A stretch of DNA of 64,000 bases from Planctomycetota bacterium (GTDB lineage: Bacteria > Planctomycetota > Planctomycetia > Pirellulales > UBA1268). The stretch covers positions 1 through 64,000 of the forward strand of contig VGZO01000020.1 of assembly GCA_016872555.1 (NCBI GenBank), given 5' to 3'. This document shows, in pieces, positions 57,270 to 62,060 of the stretch. Made by a program: the position numbers and the translations under genes. Positions within the stretch are counted from its first letter, which is position 1, and each line of letters starts with the position of its first letter. The notes beneath the pieces are model-generated. The model was not told the DNA's origin, ran no database searches, and saw only the letters and a program-made list of their open reading frames with translations.

Positions 57270-57843
57270 CGCATCGCTCCCGAGGGCCGGGGGAAATCGG
57301 CCGATCGGCCGAGGATGTCAGCCCGCGCCGAACGGCTTGCGGCAGCGCGTCAGCCGTCGCCGACGATGTCCTTGCGGGGGGCGGGGATCGCAGCGGGCGC
57401 TGCCGGCGTCGGAACGGTACTCAGGCGCTCCGCGCGGATCCAAGTCGACTCGCGTCAGGGTGCCGGCGCCGCGCGGACGGAACACGCTTTTCGGGAGCCG
57501 AACAAGGAATCGAAAAAACCTATGGAATGAACGAAACTTTTCTGTTTTGACGATGAATGCCGGCGGGCTACGAATGACGACGAAGTGAATCGCCCGCCCG
57601 CGACCGGTCGACAAGGCATGCCGGATCATCGTCCGGGTCCGGGGATGCGGGATCACCGCGGGCGGTGCGGTCGATTCCGACTGGGGAGTCGCCGTCGACA
57701 GGGCCACGACCACGATCGGCCACGCGGTGGCGCGGTCGATCGATCGTCACAAGCCGCCGGCGCAGCGGTCGGCGGCGCGCGGCCGACACGCAGTTGCCAG
57801 CCTGACGGTCGTCGTCCCCTCACCCTTCCGGAGACCCCGTCCC
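57270..57843. other. Intergenic stretch with candidate promoter and long TerC leader
   Basis: 574 nt. Contents: perfect palindrome CGGCCGATCGGCCG (57298-57311) close to the methyltransferase start, possibly an operator; a comparatively A/T-rich block (about 57500-57560) with a -35/-10 pair; then a 270-nt untranslated region before terC with a GCCGCCG/CGGCGGC hairpin at about 57754-57777. No supported gene. Confidence 0.5.
57547..57574 (+). promoter_or_regulatory. Candidate sigma-70 promoter for terC
   Basis: TTGACG (57547-57552), 16-nt spacer, TACGAA (57569-57574), preceded by an A/T-rich block that could serve as an UP element. The implied leader to the TerC start is about 260 nt, long enough to hold a regulatory RNA. 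Confidence 0.45.
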
Positions 57844-58887
57844 GTGATCACCGCCTGGTTGGCGTTCGTCGCCCTTTTCGTCGTGCTCCTCGCCCTCGAC
57901 CTCGGCGTCTTCCACCGCCGGCCGCACGTCGTCTCCGTCCGGGAGGCGCTGGGCTGGTCGGCGGTGTGGATCGCCCTCGGTCTGGCGTTTTCCGGCGTGG
58001 TGTACGTCGCCTACGAACGGCACTGGGCCGGCCTCGGGACCGCGGTCGACGCCGTCGACGGGACGGTCAACACCGGGATCACCGCGGTGGAGAAGTACCT
58101 CACCGGGTACGTCGTCGAGAAGTCGCTGAGCATCGACAACATCTTCGTGATCGCGATGATCTTCTCGTCGCTGGCGATTGACGCGGTCCACCAGCACCGG
58201 GTGCTGTTCTGGGGCGTGCTCGGAGCGCTGGTGACGCGCGGGGGGATGATCGTCGTCAGCGCCGCGTTGATCGCCCGGTTCCACTGGATCTTCTGGGTGT
58301 TCGCCGCGATCCTCATCGTCACCGGCCTGCGGATGCTCGTCGCCCGGCACGCCGACGAATCCCCGGCGCCGGGGCTGCTCCTCCACCTCCTCCGCCGGCT
58401 GTTCCCCGTCGCCGACGATGCCGGGAGCGACCGATTCCTCGTGCGGCGCTCGTCCGCCGCGGGGGTCGGCGGCTGGGCGCTGACCCCGCTGGCACTGGCG
58501 CTGCTCCTCGTCGAGGGGGCGGATCTCGTGTTCGCCGTCGACTCGATCCCGGCGATCTTCGCGATCACCGCCGACCCGTTCCTGGTGTTCACCAGCAACG
58601 TGTTCGCGATGCTCGGCCTGCGGTCGTTGTTCTTCGCGTTGGCGGGGATCGTCCGCTCGTTTCGCTACCTCAAGCCGGCGTTGGCGCTGGTGCTCGTCGT
58701 GGTCGGCACGAAGATGCTCGCCGCCGAGCAGCTCCGCCACCTGCTCGGCGATCACTTCAACCTCGGCCTCCTCGCCGTCGTGGCGGGGATCATCGCCGGC
58801 GGGATCGGGCTGTCGATCCGTGCCGACCGGCGCGAGAAGGGGGCCTGGGGCGACGTGCCGACGACACCCCTCGCGACGGAGGCCTGA
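57844..58887 (+). CDS. TerC family integral membrane protein
   Basis: 347 residues from GTG (MITAWLAFVALFVVLLALDL). About eight to nine membrane helices. TerC signatures: LVLALDLGVFHRR-like LLALDLGVFHRRPHVVSVRE, VVEKSLSIDNIFVIAMIFSS, VLFWGVLGALVTRGGMIVVS, LVEGADLVFAVDSIPAIFAI with the paired acidic residues, FTSNVFAMLGLRSLFFALAG. Family members take part in metal (manganese or tellurite-linked) homeostasis, often as exporters loading secreted metalloproteins. Its long leader is consistent with RNA-level control. The MscS gene converges 15 nt downstream. Confidence 0.94.
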   Translation: MITAWLAFVALFVVLLALDLGVFHRRPHVVSVREALGWSAVWIALGLAFSGVVYVAYERHWAGLGTAVDAVDGTVNTGITAVEKYLTGYVVEKSLSIDNIFVIAMIFSSLAIDAVHQHRVLFWGVLGALVTRGGMIVVSAALIARFHWIFWVFAAILIVTGLRMLVARHADESPAPGLLLHLLRRLFPVADDAGSDRFLVRRSSAAGVGGWALTPLALALLLVEGADLVFAVDSIPAIFAITADPFLVFTSNVFAMLGLRSLFFALAGIVRSFRYLKPALALVLVVVGTKMLAAEQLRHLLGDHFNLGLLAVVAGIIAGGIGLSIRADRREKGAWGDVPTTPLATEA

Positions 58888-58902: not shown

Positions 58903-60369
58903 TCAGGAAGCCGGCGTGGGCTGGGCGCGGGCGGTCCGCGCCGTCCGCGCCGCCTGGCGCCGCGTCTCGAGGGCGTCGCCGATCTCGGCTGCCAGGGCGG
59001 GCGAACGGTCGAGGAGGTCGCCGACGGCGGCCGGATCGAGCGACACGACGCGCAGCTCCGCGTCGGCGACGACTTCGATGTCGTCGCGGGCCGAGCCGAC
59101 CGCGAGCTGGTCGCCGAGGCAGTCACCCGGGCCGAGGGCCCCGATCCGCACCCGCTGCCCGGACGCGTCGCGCGTCCACAGATCCGCGTGGCCGCCGACC
59201 ACCAGACCGAATCCGCTGAACCGGCGCCGCGACGAATGGACCGTCTCGCCGGCGGCGTACTCGAGCACCTCCGCCGGGCGCGATGCCGCCGTGGCGACCG
59301 CGGCGCGGTAGCGGGGCTGCTCGGCGACGAGGTCGGCGGCGTTCGGCGCCGGCTTGCCCGGGCTCTCGCCCGGCGCGTACTCCATCTGGATCGGGAACGG
59401 GATCGTGAGACCGGTGCGGCGGACGGTGTACCAGATCCGCGTCATCACCAGGTCGCGGATCGCAGGGACGTCGTCCTGGGCGGCGACCGAGAAGATCACC
59501 CGGTAGATCACCGAGAAGTCGGCGTAGTTGACCGTCCGCACCAACGGCGGGGGGTCGGCGAGCACCCCCGGCGTGTCGGCGAGCATGTCGAGGACGATCC
59601 GCTTGACGCGGTCGGGGGGATCGTCGTAGCTGAGCCCGAGCTCCACCACCTCGGTGCGCACCGGGGTCGGACGCGAAAGGTTGCTGAACTCGCTCTTGTA
59701 GAGGGAGACGTTGGGGACGACGTGCAGCTCGCGCGTCGGCGTCTCGATGTGGATGCTGCGCCAGTTGATCCCGATCACCTTCCCGGTGACGCCGCCGGCC
59801 GTGACCCAGTCGCCGACGGCGAGCGGGCGCTCGAAGAGGAGCATCAACCCCGAGACGAGGTTCCCGAGCGGTTCCTGGAGGGCCAGGCCGATGACAACCG
59901 AGCCGACGCCGAGGGCCGTCAGCGCGCCCCCGACGTCCTGGCCCCAGACCTTGGAGTAGATCACCAGGCCGCCGATGGCGACGAGGCCGAAGCGGACGAG
60001 GTCACGGAACAGCGTCGGTACGCGCTCCTGCCACGAACCCACCGTGGCGCGGCCGAAGAACAGGTCGTTGAGGAGCCTCGTGAGCGTGAACAGCGCGGCG
60101 ATCCAGAACCAGGTCTCGGCGAGGCGGACGACGAGCCCGTCGGCGGGAAGCCCGAGGACCACCGCCACGAACGCCAGCAGCGCCGCCGCCGGGACCAGCA
60201 GCGAGCGCACGGTGCGCAGCGACCGGGCCAACGCGATGCCGCGGCGCTCGCAGGCCGCGATCGCCTCGCCGAGCACGACCATCACCAGGGGAAACCCGAT
60301 CGCCAGCCCGATCGCCGGCCAGAAGCCGGGCACCTGGCGGGCGATCTCGGGTTCGGACAGCCAGTTCAT
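58903..60369 (-). CDS. MscS-family mechanosensitive channel with C-terminal cyclic-nucleotide-binding-type domain
   Basis: 488 residues. Four hydrophobic segments in the first 150, then the MscS pore helix and beta domain: VGGALTALGVGSVVIGLALQ, EPLGNLVSGLMLLFERPLAV, GDWVTAGGVTGKVIGINWRS, HIETPTRELHVVPNVSLYKS. Residues about 365-470 form a cNMP-binding-like fold: VLEYAAGETVHSSRRRFSGF, LWTRDASGQRVRIGALGPGD, CLGDQLAVGSARDDIEVVAD. The usual phosphate-binding FGE...R-[SA]ATV core is altered (LGD for FGE, DDIEV for AATV), so nucleotide binding is doubtful. ATG overlaps the stop of the cyclase gene (ATGA). Confidence 0.88.
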   Translation of the reverse strand: MNWLSEPEIARQVPGFWPAIGLAIGFPLVMVVLGEAIAACERRGIALARSLRTVRSLLVPAAALLAFVAVVLGLPADGLVVRLAETWFWIAALFTLTRLLNDLFFGRATVGSWQERVPTLFRDLVRFGLVAIGGLVIYSKVWGQDVGGALTALGVGSVVIGLALQEPLGNLVSGLMLLFERPLAVGDWVTAGGVTGKVIGINWRSIHIETPTRELHVVPNVSLYKSEFSNLSRPTPVRTEVVELGLSYDDPPDRVKRIVLDMLADTPGVLADPPPLVRTVNYADFSVIYRVIFSVAAQDDVPAIRDLVMTRIWYTVRRTGLTIPFPIQMEYAPGESPGKPAPNAADLVAEQPRYRAAVATAASRPAEVLEYAAGETVHSSRRRFSGFGLVVGGHADLWTRDASGQRVRIGALGPGDCLGDQLAVGSARDDIEVVADAELRVVSLDPAAVGDLLDRSPALAAEIGDALETRRQAARTARTARAQPTPAS

Positions 60370-61879
60370 CGCCCCTCCGCTCGGTCGAGGCTCCAGGTCT
60401 CGATCGGCGCCCGTCCTTCGAGCGTGACCGACTCGGGACCGTGGAACGTGAACAGGTCGCCGGTCCGCTCACGGACGCGGCCGGTCACCCGGATCGCGGT
60501 GCCGTCGGCGGCGAGCCGGCGCGCGACGGCGACGGTGTCGCCCCACAGGTCGTAGAGGAACTTCCGCCGGCCGACGACCCCGCCGACGACCGGGCCGCAG
60601 TTGATGCCGATCGCGGCCCGGACGTCGACGCGATGCTCGCGTTGGAACGCGGCGACGAGGCGCTCGATCGAGCGGCCGAAATCGATCATCCGCCGGGTGT
60701 GGTCGGGCCGGGCCACCGACAGCCCGCAGACGGCGAGGTACGAGCCGCCGATGGCGCGGACCTTCTCGACGCCGGCCGCCTCGGCCGCCTCGTCGATCGC
60801 CGCCACCAGGTCGCCGACGGCCGCCAGCGCCCGGGCGTCGCCGTCGCGGGCGGCCAGGGCGTCGACCCCGGCGAGGTCGGCACAGAGCACCGTGACGTCG
60901 GCGAACTCGCGGCTCGCCCGCTCGTCGCCGTCGCGCCGCTGCTCGACGGCCGAGGCGGGGAGGATCGAGAGGAGCAATTCCTCGTTCCGGATCACCTGCT
61001 GCTCGAGCTGCTCCTTGCGCCGACGGATGTCGATCGCCATGTCGTTGAACACGCGGCCGAGCTGGCCGAATTCGTCGTCGGTCGCGACCGGCACGGCGAC
61101 GTCGGTCTGCCCGGCGCCGAGCCGACGGGCCGCGTCGGCGAGGCGCACCAGCGGCCGGGTGAGGAGGTGGGAGAAGAGCAGCGCCAGCAGCGTCGAGCCG
61201 AGCGCCAGCCCGCTGGCGACGCCGACCACGGTCCGGCCGAAGCGGCGGATCGGGGCGTCGGCCTCGGCCACGAACCCCTCCGGGTCCTCGTGCATGAAGC
61301 GCGACCGGCTGCGGAGCGTGTGGTCGGGACCGACCAGATAGCATTCGCCGCTGGCCCCCAGGCCCTGCGATTGCCAGTCGAAGTTGTTGGTCAGGACCTT
61401 GTTGATCGAGTCGATCGGAAACTGGATCGCGAGGATCCCGATCATCTGCGCGTTGTCGAAGATCGGGCTGATGGCGAACCCCATCGCCTTCCCGAGGCGG
61501 GGACGGTAGCGCTCGAAGTCGACGATCCGGAAATCGTCGCGGTCGCGGTCGCCGCGCAGGCTCCGGACCTTCGCGGCGAGGAGGGTGCCGGCGGAGGGGC
61601 CGGTCTCGAGATTGGTCCCGAACTCGGGCGTCTTCTGGTAGCTGTAGACGATGTCGAGTGTCTCGGCATCGATGAGCATGATGTCTTCGAAGCGGAAGAT
61701 CCGGACGGCCCGCGCGAACGCGGGGTGGAACCGGGCGTGCGCGGCGGCGTAGGCGGAATCGTCGTCGGGATGCTCGACGAGATCCTGGCGGGCCGTGGGC
61801 AGGGGGTTGGACGCGATCCAGCGCTCCTGCGCGCGCCGGGCCGCGGCTCCCTCGGGAAGATGCCCAAACGGCGGAGCAT
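60366..61879 (-). pseudogene. Decayed class III adenylate/guanylate cyclase gene
   Basis: From ATG 61879 (AGGAGG 6 nt before it, GGCTACCCT upstream) the frame opens MLRRLGIFPR, then shifts; the real protein sequence continues in another frame from about EGAAARRAQERWIASN. Family members have an N-terminal membrane helix and coiled coil there; both are gone. After IVYSYQKTPEFGTNLETGPS and LVGPDHTLRSRSRFM the chain jumps to VAEADAPIRRFGRTV, so a second sensor segment is missing too. HAMP-like part follows the remaining helix. In the cyclase domain, metal Asp1 is kept (LCADLAGVD) but GDAY has become IGGSYLAV, and WGDTVN is WGDTVAVARR. A GTG at 61985 gives a 539-residue frame, but lies upstream of the likely promoter. 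Catalytically dead if translated. Confidence 0.7.
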
Positions 61880-61915
61880 GAAACGCCTCCTGGGATGGCG
61901 CCCGCCACCCCCTGA

Positions 61916-61924
61916 AGGGTAGCC
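61916..61924 (-). promoter_or_regulatory. -10-like element before cyclase gene
   Basis: Minus strand GGCTACCCT, 36 nt before the ATG at 61879 that has the AGGAGG site. Its position indicates that the original start was at 61879. Confidence 0.4.
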
Positions 61925-62060
61925 GGCGGCCGGGGCCGCGCGCGGTTGCGAAGACCGTGCCGGCCACGGAATCGGGATCGTCCACGAGGCTCGTGACGAT
62001 CGTAGCGACGGCGACGGGCGCACCGGAGCCGCGGCGTCCCCGCGGTGCCGCGCCCGCCGT

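Follow-up and report, generated by a model that had tools for sequence, protein, structure and literature searches.

The stretch of DNA analysed here (hereafter the window: 64,000 nucleotides, positions 1 to 64,000 of the Planctomycetota contig VGZO01000020.1) encodes a sensor protein with a class III cyclase fold and, directly downstream, an MscS-type channel with a C-terminal domain resembling cyclic-nucleotide-binding (CNB) domains. With a probability of about 0.57, we consider this pair to be a conserved pseudocyclase/pseudo-CNB sensor-channel module, whose two members are probably coupled by direct contact. The pair is spread over several phyla, its pseudocyclases have a single origin, the catalytic and the phosphate-binding sites are lost in common, and purifying selection acts on both proteins.

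Organization of the gene pair in the window

Both genes are located on the minus strand, in the arrangement described by the original prediction. The upstream gene, an open frame at 60366..61985 (-), was delimited from the ORF list, Pfam and alignment to G001 (JAGWVR010000042.1, 'Planctomycetota bacterium isolate REEB424'), a genome of the same genus; it is a truncated sensor-HAMP-pseudocyclase gene with Pfam matches to HAMP (2.1e-13) and Guanylate_cyc (PF00211; 2.6e-29). The downstream gene, at 58903..60369 (-), encodes a 488-aa MscS-type channel with a C-terminal CNB-like domain, as judged from the ORF list, Pfam (MscS domains and cNMP_binding, 3.8e-8), PDB matches and a structural model. 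The stop codon of the former and the start codon of the latter overlap as ATGA (60366-60369), with GGAGGGG just upstream.

Within the upstream gene, a dCache-like sensor remnant (61274..61858 (-)), recognized by alignment to G001, weak dCache_1 matches in homologues and an AF2 model, is followed by TM2 (61170..61244 (-)), a hydrophobic sequence modelled as a helix by AF2, by the HAMP domain (61023..61178 (-)) and by the class III cyclase-fold domain (60387..60911 (-)), the degenerate active site of which is described below and which was assigned by Pfam, alignment and an AF2 model. The dCache-like sensor module (~38% identity) also occurs in other long ORFs, for instance at G000:C8:54233-54781 and in many relatives; these ORFs have no match to the cyclase part of the query.

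Just 3' of the channel gene, a convergent hydrophobic ORF is found at 57727-58887 (+) of the window, which by sequence resembles TerC-type membrane proteins. No conserved third gene was detected around the pair loci, where neighbours were common to close relatives only. An anti-phage defence system, in the form of a cyclase-effector pair like Pycsar, was also considered and was rejected, since a search for catalogued defence proteins (PADLOC, E <= 0.01) gave no match for either the pseudocyclase or the channel.

The cyclase-like domain has lost catalytic residues throughout its clade

In the window, the codon at the metal-2 site (60744..60746 (-)) specifies Gly in place of Asp (IGGSY) and that at the transition-state Asn site (60528..60530 (-)) specifies Ala (TVAVARR), both as originally read. 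The metal-1 Asp (60876..60878 (-)), which is Glu in most pair members, is retained, and so are the Arg and the two purine-selecting residues, Lys and Asp. Every family relative with a readable catalytic domain, the intact G001 included, likewise lacks the metal-2 Asp and the Asn. When residues were counted over 49 representatives under 90% identity, metal-2 Asp was present in 1/48, being replaced by Gly, Ala, Ser or Thr, and the transition-state Asn in 1/49, with Arg kept in 28/49. Metal-1 was Asp in 10/48 and Glu in 31/48, and the purine-selecting Lys and Asp were found in 47/48 and 45/49, respectively. The sole metal-2 Asp (GDRY) belongs to a divergent pair member from a gammaproteobacterial MAG (L116, 3806-5974), in which metal-1 is Val and the purine Asp is replaced by Gly. 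Two early branches, L173 and L153, retain the metal-1 Asp, and L153 also retains the Asn; together with the tree, they suggest that loss of metal-2 probably came first.

The fold itself appears intact in the models. The AF2 model of the intact relative superimposed on the ATP-bound cyclase core 5oyh with a target-normalised TM-score of 0.85-0.89, and the best-scoring PDB matches of the pseudocyclase were AC5 and AC9. Thus, the catalytic fold is present, and the complete residue set of an active class III enzyme, namely two metal Asp residues with the transition-state Asn and Arg, is not. Class III catalysis requires both metal Asp residues. By the known class III mechanism, a pseudocyclase dimer is predicted to yield no product, and the view of the cyclase as a dead sender extends, at the level of its residues, from the window to the whole clade.

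The channel retains an MscS core and a degenerate CNB-like domain

The MscS core and the C-terminal CNB domain are both present in the window channel, as indicated by Pfam and structure comparison. The core comprises the pore helix TM3 and the beta-domain (59671..59868 (-); PF00924, 1.7e-21), and its best PDB matches are E. coli MscS. The CNB-like domain (59005..59265 (-); Pfam 3.8e-8) contains a degenerate phosphate-binding cassette, LGDQLAVGSARDDIEV (59071..59118 (-); alignment and AF2 model), where orphan MscS-CNB paralogues of the same family carry the canonical FGEMSLMTGAPRVATV. Its phosphate loop reads CLGDQLAVGSARDDIEV, which bears out the atypical binding core noticed at the outset. 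The phosphate-binding Arg was found in at most ~1/45 pair channels vs. 9/9 orphan paralogues, and the phosphate-loop helix is absent from the AF2 model of the pair channel, in which the CNB fold otherwise appears intact. These features suggest that the CNB-like domain no longer binds cyclic nucleotide.

The MscS core had a mean pairwise identity of 0.68 and the pseudocyclase one of 0.52, against 0.37 for the CNB-like domain. No other folded part of the channel is less conserved, contrary to what a tight conserved interface would predict.

Distribution and linkage of the pair

When named genomes were scanned with the channel alignment, 80 channel loci were obtained, most pair loci being in metagenome-assembled genomes. 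A cyclase-like gene, usually of ~700 residues, was situated directly upstream of the channel in 72 of them, frequently with the ATGA overlap; of the other eight, three lay at contig edges, four had channels lacking a CNB domain and one was a remnant. Hence, wherever the upstream sequence could be read and the CNB-type channel was not decayed (72/72), the cyclase-like gene was present upstream. The 72 pairs span Planctomycetota, Verrucomicrobiota, Pseudomonadota (alpha and gamma), Acidobacteriota and Armatimonadota. In genus g8, several genomes encode two paralogous pairs, with each cyclase adjoining its own channel. The distance matrices of the partners were correlated (r=0.854; 0/2000 permutations), a value to which shared ancestry contributes.

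Two loci differ in state from the intact pairs. In Thiohalocapsa sp. ML1 (L167, 5523-6981; NZ_JABX01000017), an N-terminal cyclase remnant (34% over 90 aa) lies near a channel that ends after ~residue 254 and has no CNB domain, which looks like a decayed pair. At L174 (6001-6905; VGYR01000167, likely G055:C167), no cyclase lies upstream of the channel, which is broken into fragments in two frames (75% and 48% identical); this is likely a pseudogene or assembly damage.

Unpaired cyclases from the same genomes and phylum retain FADxxGFT, GDAY and the Asn-Arg pair, and no MscS gene was found within about 1.5 kb of these canonical cyclases. Four rhizobial cyclases of the same architecture (L256-L259), 31% identical over up to 95% of their length, similarly retain GDAY, Asn and Arg, and no MscS gene was present beside them in the annotated records. 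In the tree, the pair pseudocyclases formed one clade apart from the canonical cyclases (support 100/97); shuffled pair/canonical labels need ~17 changes.

We also searched for an intact active pair; the original prediction had suggested that such pairs, should they be common, would represent an unstudied cyclase-gated osmotic channel system. None was detected in the channel scan, which was seeded with pair channels so that very divergent ones could escape it, in 392 genomes of the phylum, or around the orphan MscS-CNB genes of family members. Eighty relatives of the alphaproteobacterial host, screened for close pair-type channels, contained no second one. The canonical cyclases and canonical MscS-CNB genes examined were not adjacent to each other. 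In six family genomes (L084-L088 and L090, from G004, G008, G050, G024, G046 and G014, respectively), a soluble class III cyclase gene lies ~7-16 kb from an orphan MscS-CNB gene on the same contig, both of them canonical; these may represent an active version of the relay operating in trans.

The pseudocyclase was the only class III domain found in 11/39 host genomes, all 11 of which lacked a class I cyclase; class I was the one other cyclase class covered, and the count may reflect assembly gaps.

Truncation of the sensor gene and selection on the pair

The corresponding region of G001 shares ~98% DNA identity with the window and encodes an intact 702-aa sensor-cyclase protein, which served as the reference for the deletions. 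Alignment to full-length homologues, proposed earlier as a check and done here with G001, maps two deletions of 367 bp and 228 bp. The original start codon (ATG, 61877..61879 (-), with AGGAGG upstream) opens MLRRLGI, after which 367 bp encoding TM1 and the N-terminal helices are absent (junction 61859..61862 (-), between 61862 and 61861), with a 3-bp microhomology ATC and a resulting frameshift. The second deletion removes 228 bp in frame, that is, 76 sensor codons, between 8-bp direct repeats (junction 61265..61273 (-)). The loss of the N-terminal membrane part with a frameshift and that of an internal sensor segment, both claimed beforehand, are borne out. In the AF2 model of the untruncated protein (pLDDT 87.5), the missing parts fall on TM1, the N-terminal helices and a 76-residue portion of the dCache-like domain. 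The ATG at 61879 now opens a 146-codon out-of-frame reading that ends near 61442. At 61271, a GTG preceded by GGAGGGG, which either arose from the second deletion or was preserved there and is absent in G001, might serve as an internal start for a TM2-HAMP-pseudocyclase product.

Both deletions appear private to the genome of the window and are either recent or an assembly fault. No second, intact copy of the sensor gene was found in this assembly, which is 98% complete. Amino-acid changes polarised with G003 showed no clear concentration on the window branch, and hence no clear excess of change there after the deletions (the alignment before residue 129 was spurious and was ignored).

Between the window and G001, omega was 0.041 for the catalytic domain (9 synonymous and 1 nonsynonymous changes), 0.054 for the CNB-like domain, 0.127 for the whole channel and 0.36 for the sensor remnant. 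Since at least five phyla have the same losses in common and purifying selection is strong, the degenerate state was inherited from an ancestor and is being maintained. The deletions are confined to the window genome and the Asp/Asn and CNB changes are clade-wide, so the truncation and the site losses are not the outcome of one process.

Discussion

The original prediction read the pair as decaying together, and offered as an alternative that it now uses another input. As a cause of the active-site changes, decay is ruled out by their clade-wide conservation and by the omega values (0.041 and 0.054); what stands of it is the sensor truncation, for which, in the window genome alone, it is a reasonable reading. 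We judge the alternative, another input, to be right. Relatives share the conserved form of the active site and not the truncation. That the pair is being abandoned as a pathway, as the dead sites and truncations would indicate, is thus quite improbable to us: a frameshifted sensor without TM1 and 76 further residues, along with the decayed appearance of L167 and L174, fits such an account, but dead sites that are common to a clade under strong purifying selection, a remnant without clear excess change on the window branch and an intact channel do not. If the deletions are real, two recent events would have taken TM1 and much of the sensor, leaving the pseudocyclase and the channel intact. They could also be artefacts of assembly or of strain mixture, with an intact sensor gene in the living genome, and a 162-contig assembly, the full length of all complete relatives and the absence of clearly relaxed selection on the branch of the window are consistent with this. 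We nevertheless regard an artefact as unlikely, given that no intact copy turned up in the assembly and that the 3- and 8-bp junction repeats are too short for the assembly graph to collapse, so that reads spanning them likely exist. An artefact would bear on the truncation only and is compatible with a conserved dead module.

Two further explanations retain a function for nucleotide chemistry. The cyclase fold might make or bind a non-standard nucleotide, the channel pocket having changed to match, so that small-molecule signalling persists; the joint alteration of sender and receiver, the near-invariant purine-binding Lys and Asp, and metal-1 Asp or Glu in 41/48 representatives would fit. 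We find this improbable, because, of the two metal Asp residues on which class III chemistry depends, the second is gone in 47/48, its replacements vary without converging on a new set, and the Arg for holding any cyclic phosphate is gone too. Even less credible, to the point of being very unlikely, is that the pseudocyclase serves as regulatory partner to an active class III cyclase encoded elsewhere, in a heterodimer like that of the paired domains of animal adenylyl cyclases. Its IGxxY motif does resemble the C2 half of those enzymes (IGSTY), in line with AC5 and AC9 as PDB matches, and canonical cyclases are encoded on C47 and C71 of G000. However, it has neither the Asn of C2 nor the metal site of C1, so neither site would be completed, and the paired CNB could not read the product; the 11/39 genomes in which no other class III domain was found argue, assembly gaps permitting, both against such a partner and against cAMP as the link.

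We return to the messenger-free module as the preferred reading. Its first member would be a membrane receptor (TM1, dCache-like ectodomain, TM2 and HAMP) with a catalytically dead class III cyclase as output, and its second an MscS-family channel whose C-terminal CNB-like domain lacks the cyclic-nucleotide phosphate site. The usual effect of a dCache-like receptor with HAMP is to twist a cyclase dimer. Here, on sensing an extracytoplasmic ligand or stress, the receptor would alter the pseudocyclase dimer through HAMP and the coil, and the dimer would act on the CNB-like domain by direct contact, without cAMP in between, and so set the opening threshold of MscS. An osmotic output, the ligand and the direction of the effect on the channel are parts of this scheme that we infer. 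As both chemical sites are lost yet the folds are kept, the simplest account has the pseudocyclase act on the CNB-like domain as a regulated protein surface; the symmetry mismatch between a cyclase dimer and an MscS heptamer counts against direct contact. The retained purine-site Lys and Asp mean that a nucleotide could still be bound, e.g., as an allosteric ligand. As to its history, a cAMP relay may have turned once, before spreading over several phyla, into a receptor-channel complex in which both sites were lost, the folds were kept as a docking pair and MscS came to be gated by an external ligand, a scenario to which we give a little less than even odds.

Each part is of a known kind, and by its residues neither protein appears to be a full member of its usual functional family. 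Bacterial cyclic-nucleotide-gated (bCNG) channels of the MscS superfamily (Caldwell et al. 2010; Malcolm et al. 2012; both cited in PMC4560390) share with the pair channel an MscS core with a C-terminal CNB domain. The pair channel differs in that it is tied to an upstream pseudocyclase and has neither the phosphate-binding Arg nor the xATV motif; the intact cassette (Gly-Glu, Arg, Ala-Thr) that marks bCNG channels was found in the orphan MscS-CNB paralogues, which fit this group, and not in the pair channels. Plain MscS, YnaI and MscK resemble it in pore helix, beta domain and C-terminal domain, and have no CNB-like domain and no linked receptor. Rhizobial membrane class III cyclases share the sensor, HAMP, coil and cyclase fold with the paired protein (31% identity over 95% of its length for the Sinorhizobium sp. 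M14 enzyme), but they keep GDAY, Asn and Arg and have no annotated adjacent MscS, whereas the paired ones lack metal-2 Asp and Asn. Mycobacterial Rv1625c/Cya likewise has the catalytic fold seen in sensor-HAMP class III cyclases. In KCNH channels, the CNB-homology domain works by contact with a PAS domain (PMC7515569), and by analogy a CNB-fold domain might here also gate its channel through protein-protein contact; however, KCNH is an unrelated channel family and the partner is the N-terminal PAS domain of the same channel rather than a separate pseudocyclase receptor (PMC7515569).

Among the papers searched, none described a pseudocyclase-channel pair. Automatic annotation would name its genes 'adenylate cyclase' and 'cyclic nucleotide-gated channel', probably in error. 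Dead enzymes retained as signalling parts, such as pseudokinases, are well known; a bacterial class III pseudocyclase retained next to the effector it serves is not known to us. The pair would represent a second-messenger pathway reduced by nature, the chemistry of sender and receiver having been lost together, and the canonical counterparts of both genes in the same genomes would act as internal controls. The module also predicts a new control of MscS, exerted from outside the cell via a ligand-binding receptor.
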